In this document: piece after piece, positions 40,479-56,437 of the stretch
How the letters are laid out: each line of letters begins with the position of its first letter
Numbering within the stretch: position 1 is the stretch's first letter
Source: Caulobacteraceae bacterium
GTDB lineage: Bacteria > Pseudomonadota > Alphaproteobacteria > Caulobacterales > Caulobacteraceae
NCBI GenBank assembly: GCA_019695035.1
Contig: JAIBAU010000002.1
Location: forward strand, 1-64,000
Reading direction: 5' to 3'
DNA length: 64,000 bases
The notes under the pieces: model-generated
Seen by the model: the letters and a program-made list of their open reading frames with translations, nothing else
Database searches by the model: none
What the model was told of the DNA's origin: nothing
Made by a program: the position numbers and the translations under genes

Positions 40479-40568
40479 GGACGGGTGGCCGAGTGGTTTA
40501 AGGCAGCGGTCTTGAAAACCGCCGTAGGTGCAAGCCTACCGTGAGTTCGAATCTCACCCCGTCCGCCA
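40479..40568 (+). tRNA. tRNA-Ser (UGA anticodon)
   Basis: This is a class II tRNA with long variable arm. The acceptor stem GGACGGG (40479-40485) pairs with CCCGTCC (40558-40564), discriminator G at 40565 is followed by encoded CCA (40566-40568). The anticodon stem GCGGT/ACCGC encloses loop CTTGAAA, so the anticodon is TGA at 40513-40515, reading UCA. The T-arm carries GTTCGAATC. The gene stands between divergent protein genes, with no other tRNA nearby. Confidence 0.95.
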
Positions 40569-40602: not shown

Positions 40603-41484
40603 CTACTGCGGGTTTTGGACCGTTGTAAGCTCGCCGGACCTCACTGCGTGCCACAGACGCTGGGCCGCGAAGTTGGACCCCGAGAGCGCTTCGAGCTCAG
40701 ACAGCGCGAACAGCCTCCACTCGCCCGGCCCCGAAAGAAGCCAAACCGCGCGGGCCAGCCGATCCGCGTCACTGGGCCGCTGCGAAAGGGCGCCCCAAGG
40801 GGGCGCCGGAACGGCGCTGTCGTCGACCAGGCGCACATCCCAACCCAGCGCCGTGTCCGCGACGGAGAGTTTGAACGCGGCTGTTCCGGGCTGCGTAAGA
40901 ACGAGCCAATTCTGGGCCGGGTTCGATATGCGGCTGGTCTTGCCATCCGCCTCGATGGCGACGTCACCAGGGGCTCCTAGCCAGGCCAGCGCGATCCGGT
41001 TGGCGCTCCTGGGCAACAACTGGGGTCCGGCCGGAAGTAGGGGCTGAGCCTCTACGACGGGCGGTGGGTCTCCCGGCCCGCGGGAGCGAGTGTAGACCGG
41101 AATAGGCCGGCGTCGGTCTGTAAACAGGTAGTCCAGGCTCGCCAGCATTGACGCCGCTCCGGCCGAGGGTTGTCGTGCGGCCGCTGCAGGCACGCGGAAG
41201 GGGCTGTTTGCGCGATTGATCCGACGCGGCGAAGCCTCGCCGCCGACGTAGATGCGCACGGCGACATCCGGACTGGTGACGATGATCGTGTCGCCGGGCT
41301 GGAGGTACATGTAGTCGCGGACCGCCAGCGTTTGACCGTTCCGTCGCAGGATCACATCGCCGCTGGATCGGGCGCCGAAAACGCTGTCCACCTGGCCGGC
41401 CGCCGAAACTGCCTGGGCTTGAACCGCGGTCGTCATCGCCGTCGCGACCATCACGCCGGCCGCGACCCCCCAAAATTGCGTCAC
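40603..41484 (-). CDS. Secreted FecR-like protein coupled to CHASE2 gene
   Basis: This 293-residue exported protein has a signal peptide at residues 1-24 (AQA cleavage) and an N-terminal FecR-like/SH3-like beta domain (about 28-95) with ILRRNGQTLAVRDYMYLQPGDTIIVTSPDVAVRIYVGG. A Pro/Arg-rich middle and a C-terminal domain with several aromatic positions (IALAWLGAPGDVAIEADG) follow. There is no transmembrane helix apart from the signal and no enzyme motif. Its start overlaps the stop of the CHASE2 gene (ATGA), so the pair is translated together. A periplasmic accessory or ligand-binding partner of the CHASE2 protein is the natural reading. The FecR label rests on the PGD-type motif. Confidence 0.7.
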   Translation of the reverse strand: MTQFWGVAAGVMVATAMTTAVQAQAVSAAGQVDSVFGARSSGDVILRRNGQTLAVRDYMYLQPGDTIIVTSPDVAVRIYVGGEASPRRINRANSPFRVPAAAARQPSAGAASMLASLDYLFTDRRRPIPVYTRSRGPGDPPPVVEAQPLLPAGPQLLPRSANRIALAWLGAPGDVAIEADGKTSRISNPAQNWLVLTQPGTAAFKLSVADTALGWDVRLVDDSAVPAPPWGALSQRPSDADRLARAVWLLSGPGEWRLFALSELEALSGSNFAAQRLWHAVRSGELTTVQNPQ

Positions 41485-43028
41485 TCTCGTCTCCCCCTAC
41501 CTGCGCCACTGAAAAGCCTGGCGCCGAAGCCGAAAACCGCTAGGACGCCTCGTTCCGCCATGTCCGTAAATGCCTTGGCTCCCTCAGCGTACCCTTCGAG
41601 CCCAAGGCCGAGTAGCGGAGTCAGCAGGTCGGTGATTTGCCCAACCTGCGCGCCACGCCGCAGCGCCGCCACCCCTGTGACCACCTCAACGATGATGATC
41701 GCCATCAAGAAGAGCAGGAAGATGCTGACGCTCGCCAATCGCTTCATCGCCGGCTTCAGATTCGGCCGCCCGGCCAGCCAGTAGATGGCCAGCCAGCCGG
41801 GGGTCATGATCAGGGCGCCGAGGAGCGTGCCGCCGAACTTTGCTGCGTATCGAGACCACGCTTCAGCGAGGCGCGCCGAAAGACTGGCGTCCCCCACAGT
41901 TTCCCTGAGCGGCGTAAATTCGGCGAAGGCGCGGGTGGCGTTCAGCACGATTTCCGGCCCCGCCAGCGGACCGATGGGTGTCGGATGCCAATCCTCGCCC
42001 TGGGCCGCGCTCGTTCCCAGCACGACGATCTTGCCCGCCAAAAGTCCCTCGGGGATGTCGAAATGGCCGTCCGTCATGAGACGTGACGCCACAAGCCGTT
42101 CGTAGCGTCCCAGATAGCGCGCGCGCAGGAACTCGTTCGACTGTGCAGCCTCGTCGGACAGGCCTGGAAGCGAGTAGAGGATTCGGTTGCGAACGAAGGG
42201 GTCCTGGCCGGTAGCCACCATTGCGGCGAGGATTGGCGAGCCTTCGGTCCTTGCGCAGTCAAAATCGGCGCTGCGGTAGAAGAGGCAATCCGTCGCCTTG
42301 GCCCGACGACGGTCGCCTAGCATTGCTGCAAGATAGGGCGCCGTGGGAAGCCATCGGCTCTGCTCAGTCCCTGCACCTCTTACCCGAGCCAGGATCGGAA
42401 AATGACGAACAACCCCGTCGCCGGCCGCCGGATCGGTCGTCGTCGCCATTGGCGCGAGCCGAAGCTTCCCACTCGCTAGGGCGGGCTGGCCTGCCTGTGG
42501 CCAGTCTATCGTGAGGTCCACCTCGTCCGGATTGAAGTTCGGCCGACTGGGCATCGGGGCGACAAACCAGGGACCGGATCGACCTGCGAGAGCGGCGTAA
42601 AGCGCGGCGCGATCGGCCGCTGCCGCCGGAGGTTCAACATCCACGATAACGACCCGGGCGCCGGAGGTCCGGGCCGCCCGGGCAAAATCCATGATCAGAG
42701 CCGGCGGCGCAGGCTGCGTCCGGAGGCATGCATCTTCATCAGAGAAGGGCCTGCAAGAAGCCAGATCCACATCCACGAAGGCATAAGCCTGGGGAACGGC
42801 ATGCTCAAACGCAGGGTCCACCCAAGGTGCGAATGCGACATAGGTCTTAAGGGCGAAATCGACCCCTGCTCGCTCCAGCGCCATCAAGGGTGGCGCTCTC
42901 AACGCGGCTCCCACGGTCAGGAGGGCAGAAAGCGCGAGGCTGAACACAAGGCCGGTCACCGAGACAAGGATAGCCTTGGCCCACCAGGCGCGAGGCTCCC
43001 CCTCTTTTCCGCCCAAATCGCCCCCCAC
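41481..43028 (-). CDS. CHASE2-domain membrane protein lacking an output domain
   Basis: This 515-residue protein begins in the cytoplasm and has one membrane helix (about 20-42). A large extracytoplasmic CHASE2 sensor follows (about 50-395), with YAFVDVDLASC, ARVVIVDVEPP, GKIVVLGTSAAQGEDWHPTPIGPLAGPEIVLNATRAF and related motifs. Two or more membrane helices follow (about 398-420 and 430-455). CHASE2 proteins usually continue into a histidine kinase, adenylate cyclase or GGDEF domain. Here only a 55-residue tail follows the last helix, so there is no output enzyme. It is coupled to the FecR-like gene and divergent from the TPR-CHAT gene; signalling would have to be by protein contact. Confidence 0.85.
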   Translation of the reverse strand: MGGDLGGKEGEPRAWWAKAILVSVTGLVFSLALSALLTVGAALRAPPLMALERAGVDFALKTYVAFAPWVDPAFEHAVPQAYAFVDVDLASCRPFSDEDACLRTQPAPPALIMDFARAARTSGARVVIVDVEPPAAAADRAALYAALAGRSGPWFVAPMPSRPNFNPDEVDLTIDWPQAGQPALASGKLRLAPMATTTDPAAGDGVVRHFPILARVRGAGTEQSRWLPTAPYLAAMLGDRRRAKATDCLFYRSADFDCARTEGSPILAAMVATGQDPFVRNRILYSLPGLSDEAAQSNEFLRARYLGRYERLVASRLMTDGHFDIPEGLLAGKIVVLGTSAAQGEDWHPTPIGPLAGPEIVLNATRAFAEFTPLRETVGDASLSARLAEAWSRYAAKFGGTLLGALIMTPGWLAIYWLAGRPNLKPAMKRLASVSIFLLFLMAIIIVEVVTGVAALRRGAQVGQITDLLTPLLGLGLEGYAEGAKAFTDMAERGVLAVFGFGARLFSGAGRGRRE

Positions 43029-43259
43029 GCGGCCGCGTCGGCCGATAGACCGGTGATATGCAACTTCTTACCTGATGGTTATCATACAGGTCGAGACGGC
43101 TTGGGGGAGCCTTGGTTCGATTGACTCTGGATGAGCGGCGGACGCCTCTCCGGGATGACGGACGAGGGGGCGCGGCGATCCGCGTCACCTCCACGACGGT
43201 CTTTCTCCAACGCTCGTTCATGCGGGCGCCGATAGCCCGGCTGAAAGGGAGATTTGAAC
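43029..43259. promoter_or_regulatory. Divergent regulatory gap, CHASE2 / TPR-CHAT
   Basis: These 231 bases separate the two divergent start codons and must hold both promoters. An AT-richer patch with TGATGGTTATCATACAGG near 43072-43090 is the likeliest core. I see no clear -35/-10 pair or known operator. AAGGGAGA at 43245-43252 is the ribosome site for the CHAT gene. Confidence 0.4.
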
Positions 43260-46200
43260 GTGGCGACCATTGACCCCTGCGAAGTCAAATCCTCCCGAAC
43301 TCGCCGGCCCCATTTGCTGCGGTCTGCCTGTTCAGCCGCCCTTGCCCTCTGTCTGGCCGCCGCCGCGGGCAGCAGCGCCGGAGCCCCGGCGGATCAAGCG
43401 CCGGCGCCGCAAACGGCGACGAGCAATCCGGCGCCCCAGCCGCTCCCCGCAACCACGCCGTTCGATGCCTATCTGCCGGCGTTGAAAGCGGCGGAGGGAC
43501 GTTCTGACTGGGCAGAGGTCGAACGCTTGGCAATGGCCGCGATCCGGGAACTGAAATCAAAGTTCGACGAACGGGATGCAAGTGTCGCGGAGGCGCTGGA
43601 ATGGCTCGCCACAGCTCTCGCCGAGCAGGATCGGGGACCGGAGGCGGAGACCACCCTGCGCGACGCGCTGCGGATCAGACAGGCCGTCCAGGGGGAGAAT
43701 AATCCGGATACGGCGGCCGCCTACATGAATCTGGCCGCCACTGTGAGCGACGACGGGCGGTACACGGAAGCCGAACCCCTGTACCGGGCTGCCCTTCAGA
43801 TCAGGCGAACGGTCCTGGGGGAGCAACACCCCGACACCGCCCAGAGCTATAGTAGCCTCGCGACCACCCTCCATCTTCTTGGCCGGTACGGCGATGCCGA
43901 CCCTTTGTTTCGCAGGGCGCTGGAAATCTGGCGGGGAGCGTACGGAGACCAGAACGCGGATACGGCGACGGGCTACAACGACCTCGCAGCAAACCTGACC
44001 CGCCAAGGTCGGTTCGGGGAGGCTGAACCGCTTTTCCGTCAGGCCCTCGAGATATCGCTTGCGACGCTCGGGGAACAGCATCCCGACACCGCAGCGAGTT
44101 ACCTCAATCTGGCGGCCTGCATTGAGGGCCAGGGTCGCTACGCCGACGCCGAACCTCTTATTCGCAAGGCCCTCGGAATTTGGCGAACGGCCTTGGGTGA
44201 GCAGCATCCCTACAGCGGGTACGGCTACCAGAATCTCGCGGGCAACCTTGAAAGCCAGGGCCGCTATGCCGAGGCGGAGCCCCTTTTCCGCAAGGCGCTC
44301 GATATCCAGAGGGCCGCTCGCGGGGAGCAGCACCCGACGACGGCGGCTGCCTACAACGATCTTGCAAGCAATCTGAACGCGCAGCGACGTTACGCGGAAG
44401 CAGAGCCGCTGCATCGGAAGGCGCTGGAAATTCGGCGGGCCCGCCTTGGTGAGCAGCACCACGACACGGCGGGAAGCTACAACAACCTAGCAACGAGCCT
44501 TAGCGGCCAGGGCCGGTATGCTGAAGCCGAACCGCTGCTCCGCACGGCGCTCGATCTGTGGCGGGCGACGCTGGGAGAACAGCATCCGAACACGGCGTCG
44601 GGGTACGGTAACCTCGCGTCCAATTTTGACCGGCAAGGTCGCTATGCCGACGCGGAGCCACTCCACCGCAAGGCGCTTGAGATTCGGCTCGCGGCTCTTG
44701 GTGAGCAGCACCCCGTGACAGCCCTGGGGTACAACAACCTCGCGGACAACCTGGAAAGGCAGGGCCGCCACGCCGAGGCCGCCCCGCTCTATCGCCGAGC
44801 TCTCGATATCCGACGAAGCGCTCTCGGCGAGCAGCACCCAGACACTGCCTGGGCATTCAGCGATCTCGCATCCAACCTGAACAGCCTTGGTCGTTATCAG
44901 GAAGCCGTGGATAACGCAGCGCGGGCCCTGTCGATCGCCCGGCATAACCGCACCGCGACAGCGCGCTCGAACAGCGGCGGCGCCGACGCGCAGAACGCCA
45001 TCTACCGGCTTTACCCGGCCATCGCCTGGGATGCGGCGGCGGAGAAGCCGGAGCGAACGGCTGAGTTGCGGGCGTCCGCCTATACGGCCTTACAGGATAG
45101 CCTCCATGGGTCGGCAGCTCGCGCCCTGGCGCAGGCCGCCGCACGCTCGCGCGCAGCAGCCGAGCGCTCGTCTGCGCCCGGCTGCGGGGCGCTTGATCTT
45201 CCAGCCGTCATCCGGGAACAGCAGGATCTTCAGGCGCGCGCCCGTTTCGAGGACGCGCGACTGCTGAAAGCACTGGGCGCTGCCGATCAATCCGACGCTC
45301 CCAAGGCTCGGGAGGCGCTGGCTACAATCATGGCGCGGCTCGCCGTGCTTGAGACCGAGATCGGGCGATGCTTTCCCCGTTACGCCGAACTCGTATCTGC
45401 CGGTGCCCTCGATGTCGCGGGAACCCAGGCCCGGCTCCAGCGCGACGAGGCCGTCCTGCTGATCGCGCCCGCGGGCGACGACGTCTTCGTCTTCGCCGTG
45501 AGCAAGACGGCCGCCGCCTGGCATCGACTGGTGGGTGGCTCCGCACCTCTCTCTCAAAGGGTCGGCCAGCTCCGCTGCCAGCTTGATGCCGCGACCTGTG
45601 CGGGCGCGGGTTCCAGGGGGGCGGCACTGGCCGGCTTCGACCGGACGACCTCGTACGCGCTTTACCGCGACCTGATCCAACCGGTTGAGGCCGTGCTCGG
45701 CCGGACAAAGCGACTCTATGTGGTGACGTCCGGACCGATCGGTTCGCTGCCGCTGGGGGTGCTCAATACGCGCGCCCCGCTTGCCGGCGAGGACGACGCC
45801 GATCCCGAAGTGCTGGCCTCTAGCGAGTGGCTGTCAGACCGCTACGCCATGATCACCCTGCCCTCGGTCTCCAGCCTTCGCGTGTTCGGCCGGAGCCAAC
45901 CAGCCCGTTCCGGCGAACCGTTAATGGGGTTTGGTGATCCCATTCTGGCCGAACAAGACACGAGGTCCGGGACCGGAGCGACGCCGGCCCCGCCCGCCGC
46001 CCGAGGGTCGGCGCACGTGTTCCGAAGCGTCGACACCGATGGGGTTTCGCTGGCCGATCCCGAGACGCTGCGCCAAGCCTTCTCGCCCCTTCCAGGCGCG
46101 CGGATCGAACTGCAGAACATCGCCCTGGCTTTGGGGGCGCCCCAGTCGTCCCTGAGGTTGGGCGTCGACGCGACCGAGGCCTCGGTAAAGACGTCACAGG

Positions 46201-46712
46201 ATCTGATTTCGGCGCAGGTGGTGGTGTTCGCCACCCATGGCCTCCTGCCTCGCGAAATTACCGGCATGGACGAGCCCGGCCTGGTGTTCACCCCGCCCGT
46301 GACCGCCAGCGCCCGGGACGACGGGGTGCTGACCGCGTCGGAGGCCACAGGCCTGAGTCTGTCAGCGCGATGGGTGATACTCTCGGCCTGCAATACCGCC
46401 TCGCCCGACGGTTCTTCCACCGGCGAGAGTCTTTCGGGCCTCGCCAAGGCCTTTCTGTACGCGGGAGCCCAGGCGCTGCTGGCCAGCCATTGGCGAGTCA
46501 GGGACGACGCCTCATCCTTGCTGACCGTCGAAACTCTCACGGTGCAACGTGCTAACCCGCGTATGACCCGAGCCCAGGCGCTCCAGTTGGCCATGCGCAC
46601 GATCCGCACCGGCAAACGAGCTGACGGGTCACCCCTTCCCGGCTGGACGCCCTCCATGGCTCATCCTTCCGCCTGGGCCCCCTTCGTGATCGTGTCCGAC
46701 CAGGACCGGTGA
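43260..46712 (+). CDS. Exported TPR-CHAT caspase-like protein
   Basis: This protein of about 1150 residues has a basic N-terminus and a signal-peptide-like hydrophobic segment (about 22-42, cleavage near SAGA). Ten consecutive 42-residue kinesin-light-chain-type TPRs (consensus LGEQHPDTA..YNNLA..L..QGRYAEAEPL.RKALEI.RA) follow, then a helical spacer (about 560-730) and a CHAT domain (about 780-1145). CHAT is a caspase-like peptidase fold; the dyad is present as His993 in FATHGLLPREI and Cys1044 in LSACNTASPDG. GTG at 43260 fits the ribosome site AAGGGAGA better than the TTG at 43254. CHAT proteins are mostly cytosolic, so an export signal is notable. Substrate unknown. Confidence 0.88.
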   Translation: MATIDPCEVKSSRTRRPHLLRSACSAALALCLAAAAGSSAGAPADQAPAPQTATSNPAPQPLPATTPFDAYLPALKAAEGRSDWAEVERLAMAAIRELKSKFDERDASVAEALEWLATALAEQDRGPEAETTLRDALRIRQAVQGENNPDTAAAYMNLAATVSDDGRYTEAEPLYRAALQIRRTVLGEQHPDTAQSYSSLATTLHLLGRYGDADPLFRRALEIWRGAYGDQNADTATGYNDLAANLTRQGRFGEAEPLFRQALEISLATLGEQHPDTAASYLNLAACIEGQGRYADAEPLIRKALGIWRTALGEQHPYSGYGYQNLAGNLESQGRYAEAEPLFRKALDIQRAARGEQHPTTAAAYNDLASNLNAQRRYAEAEPLHRKALEIRRARLGEQHHDTAGSYNNLATSLSGQGRYAEAEPLLRTALDLWRATLGEQHPNTASGYGNLASNFDRQGRYADAEPLHRKALEIRLAALGEQHPVTALGYNNLADNLERQGRHAEAAPLYRRALDIRRSALGEQHPDTAWAFSDLASNLNSLGRYQEAVDNAARALSIARHNRTATARSNSGGADAQNAIYRLYPAIAWDAAAEKPERTAELRASAYTALQDSLHGSAARALAQAAARSRAAAERSSAPGCGALDLPAVIREQQDLQARARFEDARLLKALGAADQSDAPKAREALATIMARLAVLETEIGRCFPRYAELVSAGALDVAGTQARLQRDEAVLLIAPAGDDVFVFAVSKTAAAWHRLVGGSAPLSQRVGQLRCQLDAATCAGAGSRGAALAGFDRTTSYALYRDLIQPVEAVLGRTKRLYVVTSGPIGSLPLGVLNTRAPLAGEDDADPEVLASSEWLSDRYAMITLPSVSSLRVFGRSQPARSGEPLMGFGDPILAEQDTRSGTGATPAPPAARGSAHVFRSVDTDGVSLADPETLRQAFSPLPGARIELQNIALALGAPQSSLRLGVDATEASVKTSQDLISAQVVVFATHGLLPREITGMDEPGLVFTPPVTASARDDGVLTASEATGLSLSARWVILSACNTASPDGSSTGESLSGLAKAFLYAGAQALLASHWRVRDDASSLLTVETLTVQRANPRMTRAQALQLAMRTIRTGKRADGSPLPGWTPSMAHPSAWAPFVIVSDQDR
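43671..44930 (+). repeat. Ten tandem 126-base units encoding TPRs
   Basis: Ten in-frame 126-base units follow each other with no gap or insertion, each encoding one 42-residue TPR. The units differ at many positions, but GGTGAGCAGCACCC-like and CGCTATGCCGA-like words recur at fixed phase. Exact phase across ten copies suggests expansion by recombination and a likely source of length variation between strains. Confidence 0.9.
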
Positions 46713-46888: not shown

Positions 46889-48640
46889 ATGAGCAAGAGA
46901 CCTGGCCTGTGGCGTTGGCTCGCCGCGCCCCTCCTTGTGTTGAGCCTGTCCGTCGGCGCCGTCGGCGCGCAAGCCCCGTATTCCCCCAACCTTCGCATGC
47001 GTCAGGTTTTCCACGATGGGGAACGGCGAACCTATGGCCTCTACGTGCCACAGCATTACGATCCGGCCCGACCGGCGACCGTCATCGTCGCCCTGCATGG
47101 CCGATACTCCTCGGCGAAGGCGTTCCATGCCTTCAGCCGCCTTGCCGATCTCGCGGAACGGCGGGGCGCGATCTTGGTCTATCCCGAACCGCTGGGGGTG
47201 TCTTGGGGCGACAGCGGTCCTGCTTCGAGCGGTCAAGCCTTGGACGCCGATAACGTCGGCTTCATTGGGGCGGCCCTTGCCCATGTAGACAAATCTTGGG
47301 ACCTCGACCTCGCTCGCGTCTTCCTGATCGGTTACGACACGGGCGGCGTTCTGGCCCTGCGCGCCAGCTGCCTGGGCCCTACGCGCTTCGCGGGAGTCGC
47401 GGTCATCAGCGCGCTCATGAGGGACCTTACCCGGGCCGCTTGCCCGGCGAGCGCGCACGCCGCGCCGACGCTGCTCATCCATGGAGCGCGGGATGAGAAC
47501 TATCCCGTCCGAGGCGACGCGGCGCAGGGCGGGGCGGGAGGCCACCGCCTCAGCCTCGCCGACACCCTTTCAACGCTCCGGAGCCTGAACGGCTGTTCAC
47601 CCTCCCGCGCTACGAGCCGATCGATCGAGCCCTGTCCCCGGGGAATGCTGGCCTTCCTGCCCGTGCCCGGGGGCGCGACCGAATGGTATCGTGACGGCCC
47701 CCACTACCGCTTCGGTCGACATGGCTTCGACGCCACTGAGGTCCTCGAGCGCTTCTTCTTCGAACCAGGTGATTTCAGCCTCCCTCAAGTCCGGGAGGAC
47801 GGCGCGTCCCATCGCTCCTGGATCACTTATGCGCCGTCGAGCTACGACCCGTCCCGCCCCACGCCCCTCGTGGTTCTTCTGCACGGCCGCCCAAGCAATG
47901 CGACGGCGATGGGATACATCACCCGAATGCACGAGGTGGCCGACCGGCACGGTTTCATCCTCGTCTACCCTGAGGGTCTCAACAATGAGTGGAACGCCTT
48001 CTACGACCTGACGCGTCAGCACGCGGTCGCGCCCCAGGACGACGTGGCATTCCTCAAAGGTCTGACCCAGGACCTGGGGCAGGATTTCAATATCGATCGC
48101 ACAAGGATGTACCTCGGCGGCTTCTCCAACGGGGGCTTCATGACCATCCGCATGGCCTGCTCGGCGGGGGACGTCTTTGCTGGGTTCGCGGTGGTCGCCG
48201 CCGAACTCTACACGGTGTTGAAGGACAAGTGCCGGGGTGGCGCACCAACGCCGATCCTGCTCATGCATGGAACGGCCGATCCCAGCGTCCCGTACAACGG
48301 CGTGGTCATACGCTCCGGCGCTGATGACCAGGAAACCCGGGTCAGTCTTGGCGCCCGCGACACCCTGGCCTGGTTCGTTGAGCGTAACCATTGCAGCCAG
48401 GCCGGCTCGATGACGACGTTTCCGATCAAAGGGAATTCAGTCGGCACCCAAGCTCAGCGGTTCATGCCTCACGACTGCGCGGTCCCAGTGTCGTTCTACC
48501 TGATCACAGGCGGAGGCCACACCTGGCCGGGGACCGTCCCGCTGGAGGGGCTCGGGGAGGTCAATATGGACATCAATGCCGGAGAGGAAATCTGGCAATT
48601 TTTCGAGCCGCTCCGACTTCGACCGACGGCGGAGCGGTAG
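46889..48640 (+). CDS. Secreted double PHB-depolymerase/LpqC-type esterase
   Basis: This 583-residue exported protein has a signal peptide (residues 1-28) followed by two related alpha/beta-hydrolase domains. Domain 2 (about 300-575) has the full active-site set: LHGRPSNATA, GFSNGG with Ser413, HGTADPSVPY and GGGHTWPG. Domain 1 (about 35-290) follows the same plan (ALHGRYSSAKAF, ILVYPEPLG, IHGARDENYP) but has GYDTGG at the elbow, so its nucleophile is Asp150 instead of Ser. Only domain 2 should be catalytic, as a feruloyl/acetyl-xylan or polyhydroxybutyrate-type esterase. ATG at 46889 places the signal peptide correctly. Confidence 0.85.
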   Translation: MSKRPGLWRWLAAPLLVLSLSVGAVGAQAPYSPNLRMRQVFHDGERRTYGLYVPQHYDPARPATVIVALHGRYSSAKAFHAFSRLADLAERRGAILVYPEPLGVSWGDSGPASSGQALDADNVGFIGAALAHVDKSWDLDLARVFLIGYDTGGVLALRASCLGPTRFAGVAVISALMRDLTRAACPASAHAAPTLLIHGARDENYPVRGDAAQGGAGGHRLSLADTLSTLRSLNGCSPSRATSRSIEPCPRGMLAFLPVPGGATEWYRDGPHYRFGRHGFDATEVLERFFFEPGDFSLPQVREDGASHRSWITYAPSSYDPSRPTPLVVLLHGRPSNATAMGYITRMHEVADRHGFILVYPEGLNNEWNAFYDLTRQHAVAPQDDVAFLKGLTQDLGQDFNIDRTRMYLGGFSNGGFMTIRMACSAGDVFAGFAVVAAELYTVLKDKCRGGAPTPILLMHGTADPSVPYNGVVIRSGADDQETRVSLGARDTLAWFVERNHCSQAGSMTTFPIKGNSVGTQAQRFMPHDCAVPVSFYLITGGGHTWPGTVPLEGLGEVNMDINAGEEIWQFFEPLRLRPTAER

Positions 48641-52984: not shown

Positions 52985-55576
52985 ATGGCTGACCGCCTCA
53001 AGCAATACCGCGAGATGCGGGACTTCTCGAAAACCGCCGAACCTCGCGGCGAGAGGCCTGCGTCGAAGTCCGGCCGCTTGCGCTTCGTGGTCCAGAAGCA
53101 TGCAGCGACCCGACTGCACTATGACCTCCGTCTTGAGTATGAGGGGGTGTTCCTGTCCTGGGCGGTTACCCGGGGACCGTCCCTGGACCCCGAAGAAAAA
53201 CGTCTGGCGGTGGAAACCGAACCGCACCCGCTCGAGTACGGGGACTTTGAAGGAACAATTCCAAAAGGCGAATACGGCGGGGGCGCCGTGATGCTCTGGG
53301 ATCGCGGCTACTGGGACCCCGACCCGAACAAGTCCATCGCCGAGGGACTCGAGCATGGACACATCGCGATTCATTTTGACGGCAAGCGGCTCAAGGGCGG
53401 CTACCACCTGGTCAAGATCAAGAACGACAGGTCACGGGGTGGTCGGGCGAACTGGCTGCTGTTCAAGTCCGCCGATGCCTTCGCACGCCCCCGGGATGCT
53501 GATCGCTTTCTCAAGGACACCGACTACTCGGTGGCGTCGGGACGTACACTCGCAGATATCGCGGCCGGTGTAGGGCGAGCCCCCTCCCCCTTCATGACCC
53601 GGACTCCACAGGCGGCTGCACAGGACTGGAGCGCCAGCAGCGGCCGACAGGTGCAGAGGCCCAAGGTCAATCCGCCCCCGAAGGTCGGCAAGAAACCTGA
53701 AATCGCCTTCGTCGACTTCCAGCTCTGCCGGCTCGCCGAGGAGCCGCCAAAGGGGCCCGAGTGGGCGCACGAGATCAAATTGGACGGTTATCGAATCCAG
53801 GCTGTTGTGCGCGGGGGCGAGGTGACCCTGTTCAGTCGGAAGGGACTCGACTGGACAGACCGCTTCCCCGAAATCGCCGACGATTGCGCCGACCTACCCG
53901 ATGGCGCCTACGACGGTGAGATTTGCGCCCTCGACGGGGAGGGGCGGCCCGATTTCCCGGGCCTCCAGGCCGCGCTGTCGGACAGGAAGACGTCGCGCCT
54001 TGTCTACTTCCTCTTTGATGCCCCGTTTGGAGATGGAGAAGACCTCCGCCAACAAGTTCTCGCGGCCCGAAAGGAGCGCCTTCAGGACCTCCTGGAGGCG
54101 GCTCATGTCGGAGATCGACTTCGCTACGCCGAGCATTTTCGGACCTCAGGGGCGGCCATGCTCGAGAGCGCTTGCCAAATCGGGCTCGAGGGCATCGTTT
54201 CCAAGAGACTGGACGCACCCTACCGGTCAGGTCGATCGGATACGTGGATCAAGATCAAGTGCCGCGCCGATCAGGAGGTGGTCCTGGGCGGCTGGACCAC
54301 AACGGGCGCGGCCTTCCGATCGCTGCTGGCCGGCGTCTACCGCGACGGGAAGTTGGTTCACGTCGGGCGGATCGGAACGGGGTTCGGGGAAGAGAAACTG
54401 AAGAGGCTCCTGCCCCAACTCCGGAAGGCAGCCGCTGACAGATCTCCCTTCGAAGGCCCCGGCGCGCCCAAGAAGGCCGCGAACATTCACTGGCTGAAAC
54501 CCGTTCTCGTCGCAGAGATCGCGTTCGCTGGCTTCACCGGCGACGGCAACATCCGCCAGGCCAGCTTCAAGGGGCTACGCGACGACAAGGATGCGAGGCA
54601 AGTGGTGGCCGAAACGGAAGGCATGCAGCAGGCGACGATCATCGTCACGCCGACCCGGACAGACAGCGGCAAGAGCGCGGTCGTTGAGGGGGTTTCAATC
54701 TCCAACCCTGACAAGCCGCTCTGGCCCTCACACGGCGATCAGCCTCCGGTGAGTAAGCGAGAGCATGCAGAATACCTGGACGCCGTCATGGACTGGCTCC
54801 TCCCGCACATCGCGGGACGACCTTGCTCGATCATTCGCACGCCAGACGGCATCGACGGCGATCAGCGCTTCTTCCAGCGGCATGCGGGCGCGGGGACCTC
54901 GGACCTGATCACCGAGGTCAAGGTGCGGGGCGACAAGGAACCCTACCTCCAGTTCGACACGCCGGCGGCCGTCATTGCAGCAGCCCAGTCCGGCGCAACC
55001 GAATTTCACCCCTGGAACTGCCTCTCGAGCCACCCGGAGATCCCCGGCCGGTTTGTTTTCGATCTGGACCCCGACGAGGCCATACCGTTCGATCGGGTGA
55101 TTGCGGCGGCGAAGGAGGTGAAGGAGAGGCTGGAAGCGCTCGGCCTCAGCGCTTTCCTGAAGACAACGGGCGGCAAGGGTCTGCACGTCGTCACGCCGCT
55201 CAAGAACGCCGGCAAAACGCCCGTCGGATGGCCGGAGGCGAAGGCGTTCACCAAGGCCCTGGTGAGCCGCATGGCCGATGACAGCCCGGGCCTCTACACC
55301 GTTAACATGGCGAAGAAAGTCCGCGGCGGCCGCATCTTCCTCGACTATTTGCGCAATGACCGCATGTCGACCGCCGTCGCGCTTCTCTCGGCGCGAGCCC
55401 GGCCCGGCGCTACAGTGTCCTATCCCCTGTCATGGGCTCAGGCGAAAAAAGGGTTGGACCCCAGCGCGTATACGGTCCGCTCGGCCCCGAGGCTGATGAA
55501 GCGGAACCGAGCCTGGGACGGCTACGACGAAGCCGCGGGCTCGCTCAAGGACGCCATTCGGCGCCTGGGCAGCTGA
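52985..55576 (+). CDS. ligD: Multidomain ATP-dependent DNA ligase LigD
   Basis: This 863-residue nonhomologous end-joining enzyme has domains in the order phosphoesterase, ligase, polymerase. The 3'-phosphoesterase (about 25-165) has FVVQKHAATRLHYDLRLEYEG. The ligase (about 225-520) has catalytic Lys265 in EIKLDGYRI and the terminal WIKIKCR motif. The polymerase (about 570-850) has metal-binding Asp693/Asp695 in FDLDPDEAIPF. Together with Ku it seals double-strand breaks, adding ribonucleotides when needed. Start ATG at 52985 follows GGAGCGAGC. It ends where the convergent ku gene ends, the two stop codons touching (TGATCA). Confidence 0.95.
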   Translation: MADRLKQYREMRDFSKTAEPRGERPASKSGRLRFVVQKHAATRLHYDLRLEYEGVFLSWAVTRGPSLDPEEKRLAVETEPHPLEYGDFEGTIPKGEYGGGAVMLWDRGYWDPDPNKSIAEGLEHGHIAIHFDGKRLKGGYHLVKIKNDRSRGGRANWLLFKSADAFARPRDADRFLKDTDYSVASGRTLADIAAGVGRAPSPFMTRTPQAAAQDWSASSGRQVQRPKVNPPPKVGKKPEIAFVDFQLCRLAEEPPKGPEWAHEIKLDGYRIQAVVRGGEVTLFSRKGLDWTDRFPEIADDCADLPDGAYDGEICALDGEGRPDFPGLQAALSDRKTSRLVYFLFDAPFGDGEDLRQQVLAARKERLQDLLEAAHVGDRLRYAEHFRTSGAAMLESACQIGLEGIVSKRLDAPYRSGRSDTWIKIKCRADQEVVLGGWTTTGAAFRSLLAGVYRDGKLVHVGRIGTGFGEEKLKRLLPQLRKAAADRSPFEGPGAPKKAANIHWLKPVLVAEIAFAGFTGDGNIRQASFKGLRDDKDARQVVAETEGMQQATIIVTPTRTDSGKSAVVEGVSISNPDKPLWPSHGDQPPVSKREHAEYLDAVMDWLLPHIAGRPCSIIRTPDGIDGDQRFFQRHAGAGTSDLITEVKVRGDKEPYLQFDTPAAVIAAAQSGATEFHPWNCLSSHPEIPGRFVFDLDPDEAIPFDRVIAAAKEVKERLEALGLSAFLKTTGGKGLHVVTPLKNAGKTPVGWPEAKAFTKALVSRMADDSPGLYTVNMAKKVRGGRIFLDYLRNDRMSTAVALLSARARPGATVSYPLSWAQAKKGLDPSAYTVRSAPRLMKRNRAWDGYDEAAGSLKDAIRRLGS

Positions 55577-56437
55577 TCAGGCGCGGCGCGCGGTCTTGCG
55601 CGACGGAGCGCGCTTCTTCCCATCAGCCTTTGCTGCGTTCGCCGGCTTGCGACGCGGCGAGGCGCCCTCGCCCAGACTTTTCTTGAGCATGGCCATCAGG
55701 TCCTTGACCTCGGTATCCTGCGGCTCCTCAGACCGGATGACCGACTTCTTGCCTTTCAGTTTGGCTTGGATCAGGTCGCGCAGCGCATCTTCGTAGCGGT
55801 CCCGGAATCCCTCCGGCTCGAAGTCACCGCTCATCTGGTCGATGATCTTGCCCGCGATTTCGATCATGGACTTGTCCGGCTTAACGTCCGGAATCTCCTC
55901 AAAATAGCTTTGCGGCTGCCGCACCTCATCGTGGCTGCGGAGGGAATAGGCCACAAGCCCTTCATCGCGCGGCTCGATGGCCATCAGACGTTCCCTCTGG
56001 TGCAGCACGACACGGCCCAAGGCGATCCGTCCGGACTGCTCCATCGCCTGGCGAATGACGGCGTAGGCTTCGGCGGCCACCTTGCCGTCGGGAACCAGGT
56101 AGAAGGGGTCATTCCAGTAGAGCCGGTCGATATCCTCGACGTCGACAAACCGCTCAATGTCCAGGACCCGGTTGGACTCGATCCGGACCGACTGAAGCTC
56201 TTCATCCGAGACGATGACGTAGCGATCCTTCTCGTACTGATAACCCTTCACGAGCGACGACCTCTCGATCGGACCCGTATCCGGATCCGTAGCGATCATT
56301 CTGATCCGGTTGCTGGTCTTGGGGTTGATCAGATTGAACGAGATGTCGGCGGTGCGCGATACGGCCGTGTACAGCGCCACGGGACAGGTCACGAGCGAGA
56401 GACGAAGGTGTCCTTGCCAGGTAGGTCGCGGCGCCAT
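55577..56437 (-). CDS. ku: Ku-type DNA end-binding protein
   Basis: This 286-residue bacterial Ku forms a homodimeric ring that loads on DNA ends and recruits LigD. The N-terminus APRPTWQGHLRLSLVTCPVALYTA, the Ku-core segments RSSLVKGYQYEKDRYVIVSDEEL and ALGRVVLHQRERLMAIEP, and a Lys/Arg-rich C-terminal tail are typical. The tail probably aids DNA threading. It is encoded opposite ligD, abutting tail to tail rather than in an operon, so the two have separate promoters. Confidence 0.95.
   Translation of the reverse strand: MAPRPTWQGHLRLSLVTCPVALYTAVSRTADISFNLINPKTSNRIRMIATDPDTGPIERSSLVKGYQYEKDRYVIVSDEELQSVRIESNRVLDIERFVDVEDIDRLYWNDPFYLVPDGKVAAEAYAVIRQAMEQSGRIALGRVVLHQRERLMAIEPRDEGLVAYSLRSHDEVRQPQSYFEEIPDVKPDKSMIEIAGKIIDQMSGDFEPEGFRDRYEDALRDLIQAKLKGKKSVIRSEEPQDTEVKDLMAMLKKSLGEGASPRRKPANAAKADGKKRAPSRKTARRA

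Follow-up and report, generated by a model that had tools for sequence, protein, structure and literature searches.

Organization of the Locus

A 64,000-nucleotide stretch of DNA from a Caulobacteraceae bacterium with a genome of 2.9 Mb (GenBank assembly GCA_019695035.1, contig JAIBAU010000002.1, positions 1 to 64,000; hereafter, the window) contains, at positions 40603–46712, three genes coding for a FecR-like protein, a CHASE2 membrane protein, and a TPR-CHAT protein. The trio co-occurs in other genera of the family and in two other alphaproteobacterial families, and we consider here whether it could form an envelope switch built around an exported protease. The FecR-like (MtxA-like) secreted protein of 293 amino acids is encoded on the minus strand (40603–41484) and was assigned from its open reading frame (ORF), an AlphaFold2 (AF2) model, and the signal peptides of its relatives. 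The gene of the CHASE2 membrane protein (515 amino acids, no cytoplasmic output domain) lies on the same strand (41481–43028). The two genes are translationally coupled via a GTGA overlap (41481–41484, minus strand), which holds the stop of the CHASE2 gene and the start of the FecR-like gene; the spacing of the corresponding genes is equally tight, or overlapping, in loci L089, L158, and L159. A divergent intergenic region of 231 bases (43029–43259), in which no sigma-70-type promoter pattern was found, separates the CHASE2 start from the TPR-CHAT gene. The product of the latter is predicted to be exported (43260–46712, plus strand; start codon GTG at 43260 or, alternatively, TTG at 43254). 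The three ORFs, their coordinates, the coupling, and the divergent arrangement are as given in an initial annotation of the locus, which was made from the sequence alone.

The TPR-CHAT Protein

The CHAT domain (45651–46694, plus strand, as are all features of this gene) was matched by PF12770 (Pfam, 1.4e-47) and found in the genome search; by family, it has a caspase-like peptidase fold. The TPR region (43551–44955; TPR_10/TPR_12, Pfam and translation) consists of 10–11 repeats of 42 residues. TPR_10 was found in 11 stretches, ten of them good repeats and one degenerate, which agrees with the ten repeats first noted. The catalytic pair is intact, with His993 in a THG motif (codon 46236–46238) and Cys1044 in a SACNT motif (codon 46389–46391), both in GTG numbering. 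Among relatives, the Cys is conserved in 79/79 aligned CHAT rows and the His in 77 of 78. The exceptional CHAT gene (L072:4435–5844), with Tyr for the catalytic His, adjoins C14 caspases with intact motifs.

A Sec-type signal peptide (43260–43385, cleavage near AGA|PA) was predicted at the N-terminus by a heuristic scan, in line with the export signal proposed in the initial annotation. With one heuristic and equal start-codon freedom in both scans, a signal peptide or lipobox was called on 56 of the 67 called CHAT genes vs. 92 of 319 control ORFs, so the CHAT homologues appear to be mostly exported. The short CHAT of L072, which shares a locus with L088, has a strongly hydrophobic N-terminal segment that failed the cleavage-site rule of the heuristic.

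Most discussion of bacterial CHAT and caspase homologues treats them as cytosolic effectors of defence or death, and the TPR-CHAT protein of Craspase, Csx29, is cytosolic. The window protein, which is predicted to be exported, fails the Csx29 model (NF041237; 13.1 bits vs. a cut-off of 300). The PADLOC protein models gave only a partial match to BovA (0.0083, 12.7 bits) and a generic TPR model. The TPR-CHAT protease architecture is shared with Csx29/Craspase, which is RNA-guided (PMC10028731, PMC9729208).

The CHASE2 Protein and Its Clade

The window CHASE2 protein was matched by PF05226 (7e-13, 49.2 bits, cut-off 26.3). As the initial annotation had it, no second family, such as a kinase or cyclase output, was found above cut-off in its 515 amino acids with the Pfam, NCBIfam, and PADLOC models, and Pfam revealed no output domain in the CHASE2 proteins of L127, L129, and L090. 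A low-confidence structure model shows one hydrophobic helix at the N-terminus and up to three at the C-terminus; owing to its pLDDT of 48, the model was dropped as a query for fold searches. Sequence searches of solved structures with the CHASE2 profile and with the CHAT region gave no matches. The closest CHASE2 relatives come from Caulobacter, Brevundimonas, and an uncultured Caulobacteraceae bacterium, records of which are included in our same-family genome set.

In the phylogenetic tree, the FecR-paired output-less CHASE2 proteins form one clade (support 96/84) that spans Caulobacteraceae, two other alphaproteobacterial families, and Thiotrichaceae (three sequences). The output is missing across the clade, as judged by length for all members and by Pfam for those tested. 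A CHAT or C14 gene, mostly with an export signal, lies near the FecR-paired CHASE2 gene in 14 of the 15 evaluable loci (CHAT in 12, C14 caspase in L090 and L092, none in L006), a figure that is partly selected since several of these loci were fetched for their CHAT gene; L091, only a 3.9-kb contig, was left out. For the loci located without using CHAT, the unselected figure is 8/9. In Candidatus Parabeggiatoa (L090:2773–8178), the order is FecR-like, CHASE2, and then C14 caspase; the latter has a possible lipoprotein signal by eye, which was not passed by the heuristic. A putative C14 domain in L084 was rejected, since the weak match to its own profile (1e-6) found no confirmation in Pfam.

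In the CHAT tree, the window CHAT groups with the CHATs of G186, G121, and G006, all without CHASE2/FecR neighbours, and the FecR-associated CHATs are scattered over the tree, so that the FecR label needs 6 changes. CHATs in FecR loci thus come from several unrelated lineages, which indicates that the pairing originated or was re-established more than once. One CHASE2 clade combined with scattered CHATs suggests a stable receptor pair with a changing protease partner.

A separate group of output-less CHASE2 proteins adjoins exported M48 peptidases in 6 loci (L081, L082, L083, and L085 placed in the tree; L160 and L162 assigned by neighbourhood). The pattern of an output-less CHASE2 beside an exported protease is therefore seen at least twice. 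A small secreted protein is encoded between the CHASE2 and M48 genes in L083, L085, and L162.

Recurrence of the Locus in Other Genomes

Among 199 same-family genomes, CHAT was found in 61 and CHASE2 in 108. From other families of the class, 40 CHAT loci were picked from the CHAT list and fetched as stretches of up to 20 kb; 16 of them had a CHASE2 gene no more than about 8 kb away, vs. 0.43 expected from CHASE2 density. Two locus types were distinguished. In type I, the CHASE2 carries a Guanylate_cyc domain and is accompanied by an exported CHAT and, often, by a secreted protein of ~250 amino acids; type II, to which the window locus belongs, comprises an output-less CHASE2, a FecR-like protein, and an exported CHAT. 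Type I is the commoner of the two. It is widespread (L066, L067, L068, L093, L097, L110, L111, L112, L116), and its TPR-CHAT is often a lipoprotein. The proposal in the initial annotation that the module works without a second messenger applies to all of the FecR-paired CHASE2 clade, which lacks outputs, and is limited to that branch because the commoner loci carry a CHASE2-cyclase.

The trio was also found in G042, G085, G115, G172, and G196, and in six genomes of the two other alphaproteobacterial families. Three loci located by the FecR-like protein alone (G554, G387, and G476) all contain CHASE2, FecR-like, and CHAT genes. This recurrence across genera and families largely excludes a chance neighbourhood of three unrelated envelope genes, and we regard such an explanation as very improbable, even if the closest relatives of the window CHAT occur without the CHASE2/FecR pair and the FecR-like family is present in few species (at least 8 of 386 class genomes).

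A two-partner-secretion (TPS) exoprotein was detected at the G554 and G476 loci, with ShlB at the latter; in the G387 stretch, a large ORF beside CHAT is cut by the stretch end and gave no TPS profile match. The complete arrangement, in which ShlB-TPS-CHAT is convergent with FecR-CHASE2, was found in G206, G320, G476, and G115. A CHASE2-CHAT spacing of 19–20 kb occurs in eight Caulobacteraceae contigs, of which G144 and G121 were looked at; in these, the CHAT end is a ShlB-TPS-CHAT unit. At this distance, the arrangement was not counted as adjacency. Many other CHAT genes adjoin TPS and/or ShlB genes with no CHASE2 near (L005, L095, L113, L119, L133–L136, L141–L143). These would suit a TPR-CHAT that serves secreted surface proteins, such as TPS exoproteins, as a chaperone or maturation protease, with CHASE2 and FecR having a regulatory role and no physical contact. 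We find this unlikely, as it leaves unexplained the missing outputs in the FecR-paired CHASE2 clade and the occurrence beside the receptor of unrelated caspase-fold proteases or, in a different clade, of M48 proteases.

In the G172/G196 loci (L087:9013–18437, L088:8038–16320), the gene order is CHASE2-FecR-CHAT-C14-trypsin-C14. The catalytic motifs of the C14 proteins and trypsin are present, and the trypsin has an intact GDSGGP and a zymogen-like K|IING; by inspection, the N-termini are Sec-like, and that of the last C14 is Tat-like. Such multi-protease loci possibly code for a periplasmic protease cascade. Their cascade-like look, together with the action of TPR-CHAT in cytosolic RNA-guided defence (PMC10028731, PMC9729208), would fit programmed death or defence, in which a CHASE2/FecR trigger frees caspase-like proteases that destroy the envelope. 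This is improbable in our view, since the PADLOC search gave weak TPR/BovA matches only, and the recurring TPS/ShlB genes better suit surface biology. The recurring TPS exoprotein favours surface-protein processing over programmed death. Another locus (L069:569–19583) has, within 19 kb, three CHAT genes whose CHAT domains are nearly identical, along with genes for a C14 caspase, CHASE2, and a two-component system.

The FecR-like Protein

The description of the third product as a secreted FecR-like protein stood in part. Profile searches gave no family above cut-off; neither Pfam FecR (PF04773) nor the NCBIfam FecR models matched it, and the FecR profile did not match the window protein or four relatives even at E 1. 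The signal peptide of the window protein is weak, having no positive n-region, whereas a clear one is present in 10 of the 12 family members, the window protein being counted among the 12. The AF2 model shows an N-terminal beta domain (about residues 26–107), a helix and flexible linker (about 103–143), and an Ig-like domain with three C-terminal helices (about 144–288). The top Foldseek match was the MtxA C-terminal domain (4z29; E 6.7e-4, probability 1.0), which is weak in superposition (TM 0.27/0.40, rmsd 6.0; VIA Z 4.9). In VIA, residues 26–107 aligned to 5ix9 with Z 8.7, the next row having 5.1; the identity of 5ix9, a "cell surface anchoring domain", is taken from its title alone. The MtxA gene precedes a CHASE2-cyclase gene in Magnetospirillum (PMC4439547).

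The counts obtained with the FecR-like profile A4 are lower bounds, as few candidates were scored per genome. Matches were obtained in at least 8 of the 386 genomes of the class and in at least 6 of the 199 of the family; of 397 genomes drawn across the phylum, this genome alone had one among the candidates scored. A weak match in G568 had no CHASE2 or CHAT nearby. The FecR-like protein was rejected as a homologue of the ~250-amino-acid secreted protein of the cyclase-type loci (hhalign probability 0.3%).

A basic residue recurs in the linker in the family alignment and is a candidate cleavage site only. The retention domains of large adhesins consist of a beta domain, a helix, and a cleavage site, and in D. 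vulgaris they dock on a periplasmic protease (PMC13090378). The resemblance of the FecR-like beta domain, helix, and flexible basic linker to these LapG-type modules, and the pairing in type I loci of an exported CHAT with a Guanylate_cyc-bearing CHASE2, would be expected if the signal ran in the reverse direction. CHAT would then be the input, activated in the periplasm, and would cleave the FecR-like protein or CHASE2, altering the receptor; the consequences would be a cAMP/cGMP rise in cyclase-bearing relatives and a partner-relayed signal in the window branch. The receptors of the FecR-paired clade lack an output, so their cleavage by CHAT leads nowhere visible, and the linker motif is a resemblance only. 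We consider the reverse direction rather unlikely.

Related Genes in the Genome and Other Genes of the Window

A second CHAT gene of this genome, on contig C53, follows a TPS exoprotein gene that extends to the end of the contig; this CHAT is most closely related to that of the G115 type II locus. The CHASE2 on contig C35 likewise has the G115 CHASE2 as its nearest relative. Contig C10 has a ShlB gene at its beginning. The end of C53 and the start of C10 (L163, L167), as read from the contig ends, share 12 bases, GGGCGCGGCGGG; a scripted test for overlaps of at least 15 bases found none. These ends and the gene order would fit a single ShlB-TPS-CHAT operon that was broken during assembly. Another ShlB gene and a TPS exoprotein gene of more than 1900 codons, which runs off contig C27, were found at L169:5780–13217.

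In the window, a tRNA-Ser (tga) gene (40479–40568) is located just downstream of the FecR-like gene. Directly downstream of the CHAT gene is a gene (46889–48640) for a secreted protein with two esterase domains that matched a short-chain PHA depolymerase model. Convergent DNA ligase D (LigD) and Ku genes (52985–56437) make up a bacterial end-joining pair.

Proposed Mechanism and Comparison with Known Systems

The association of CHASE2, FecR-like, and CHAT genes and the export signals are well supported; sensing, control by contact, cleavage, and a substrate are inferred. In the reading that we favour, with a probability of roughly 0.4, the CHASE2 and FecR-like proteins gate an exported caspase-fold protease, in the manner of the LapD/LapG envelope switch with unrelated parts. 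The output-less CHASE2 would be an inner-membrane sensor whose signal emerges on the periplasmic side, and the FecR-like protein would be its periplasmic partner. Together they would bind the exported cysteine protease of caspase fold, which in this locus is TPR-CHAT, and either hold it back or activate it; its TPRs may recruit the target. As output, a protein of the envelope or cell surface would be cleaved; in several relatives, the TPS exoprotein encoded alongside is the most likely target. The interpretation in the initial annotation, a periplasmic CHAT protease controlled by direct contact in envelope surveillance or a programmed response, is partly supported. None of the three findings that would have spoken against it (CHAT homologues without signal peptides, a trio confined to one genus, or an unconserved dyad) was obtained.

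Several observations weigh against this reading. The nearest relatives of the window CHAT (L139, L140, L148) have no CHASE2/FecR neighbours, which shows that the pairing is not obligatory and speaks against a tight dedicated system. The second CHASE2-FecR pair of this genome (L006, contig C35) has no adjoining protease gene, no TPS or ShlB profile match was obtained in the window, and the type I loci, with exported CHAT and CHASE2-cyclase, fit a CHAT acting upstream of the receptor. The CHAT of one relative has Tyr at the position of the catalytic His, and the 14/15 figure is partly selected. The signal-peptide calls come from a heuristic rather than from SignalP; the FecR-like model has a low pLDDT (66), and the CHASE2 model is too poor for use.

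The closest working model, by analogy, is LapD/LapG/CdrA. The TPS adhesin CdrA is cleaved by LapG in the periplasm, and the LapG of P. putida is held by the inner-membrane protein LapD (PMC4694147). An inner-membrane receptor, a periplasmic cysteine protease, and a large surface protein (LapA or the TPS adhesin CdrA) are the shared elements (PMC4694147). The protease here is CHAT and not a LapG-type BTLCP, and the receptor is a CHASE2 without GGDEF/EAL and c-di-GMP input; a Pfam scan found neither BTLCP nor GGDEF/EAL in the three window proteins. As both families differ, the module is not a member of LapG/LapD, and the likeness lies in the way of working.

Other systems share single elements. 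In the BiofilmReg operon, a secreted FecR-domain protein (FecR/LysM) is encoded beside a CHASE2 receptor; this receptor is a histidine kinase that works with a response regulator, and the system has no protease (PMC5192318). Magnetospirillum combines the secreted protein MtxA, weakly matched in its C-terminal fold by the FecR-like model, with a CHASE2 adenylate cyclase; the receptor there bears a cyclase, and the available part of the report makes no mention of CHAT (PMC4439547). The metacaspase-CHASE2 fusion of Trichodesmium links a caspase-superfamily domain to CHASE2 in one polypeptide, with the peptidase predicted to be cytoplasmic (PMC3501461). In S. meliloti, CHASE2 cyclases act in one pathway with FecR (SMc02177) and TPR (SMb20495) proteins predicted to be non-cytoplasmic (PMC5498481). 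The exported TPR protein SMb20495 was rejected as a CHAT protein, and the pathway differs in this respect, since no CHAT match was found on pSymB, which carries smb20495.

A broader proposal, somewhat more tentative than the one for the window, is that output-less CHASE2 proteins as a class control exported proteases (CHAT, C14, a trypsin cascade, M48) in the periplasm, with the MtxA/FecR-like protein as the coupling subunit or the substrate. The set of an exported CHAT, an output-less CHASE2, and a periplasmic partner seems not to have been described previously; our literature search found no paper combining "CHASE2" and "CHAT domain". If the proposed mechanism is true, caspase-fold proteolysis would enter envelope and surface control, output-less CHASE2 proteins would gain a job, and caspase-superfamily signalling would be located in the bacterial periplasm. 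The module offers a testable parallel of LapD/LapG in bacteria that uses other parts.

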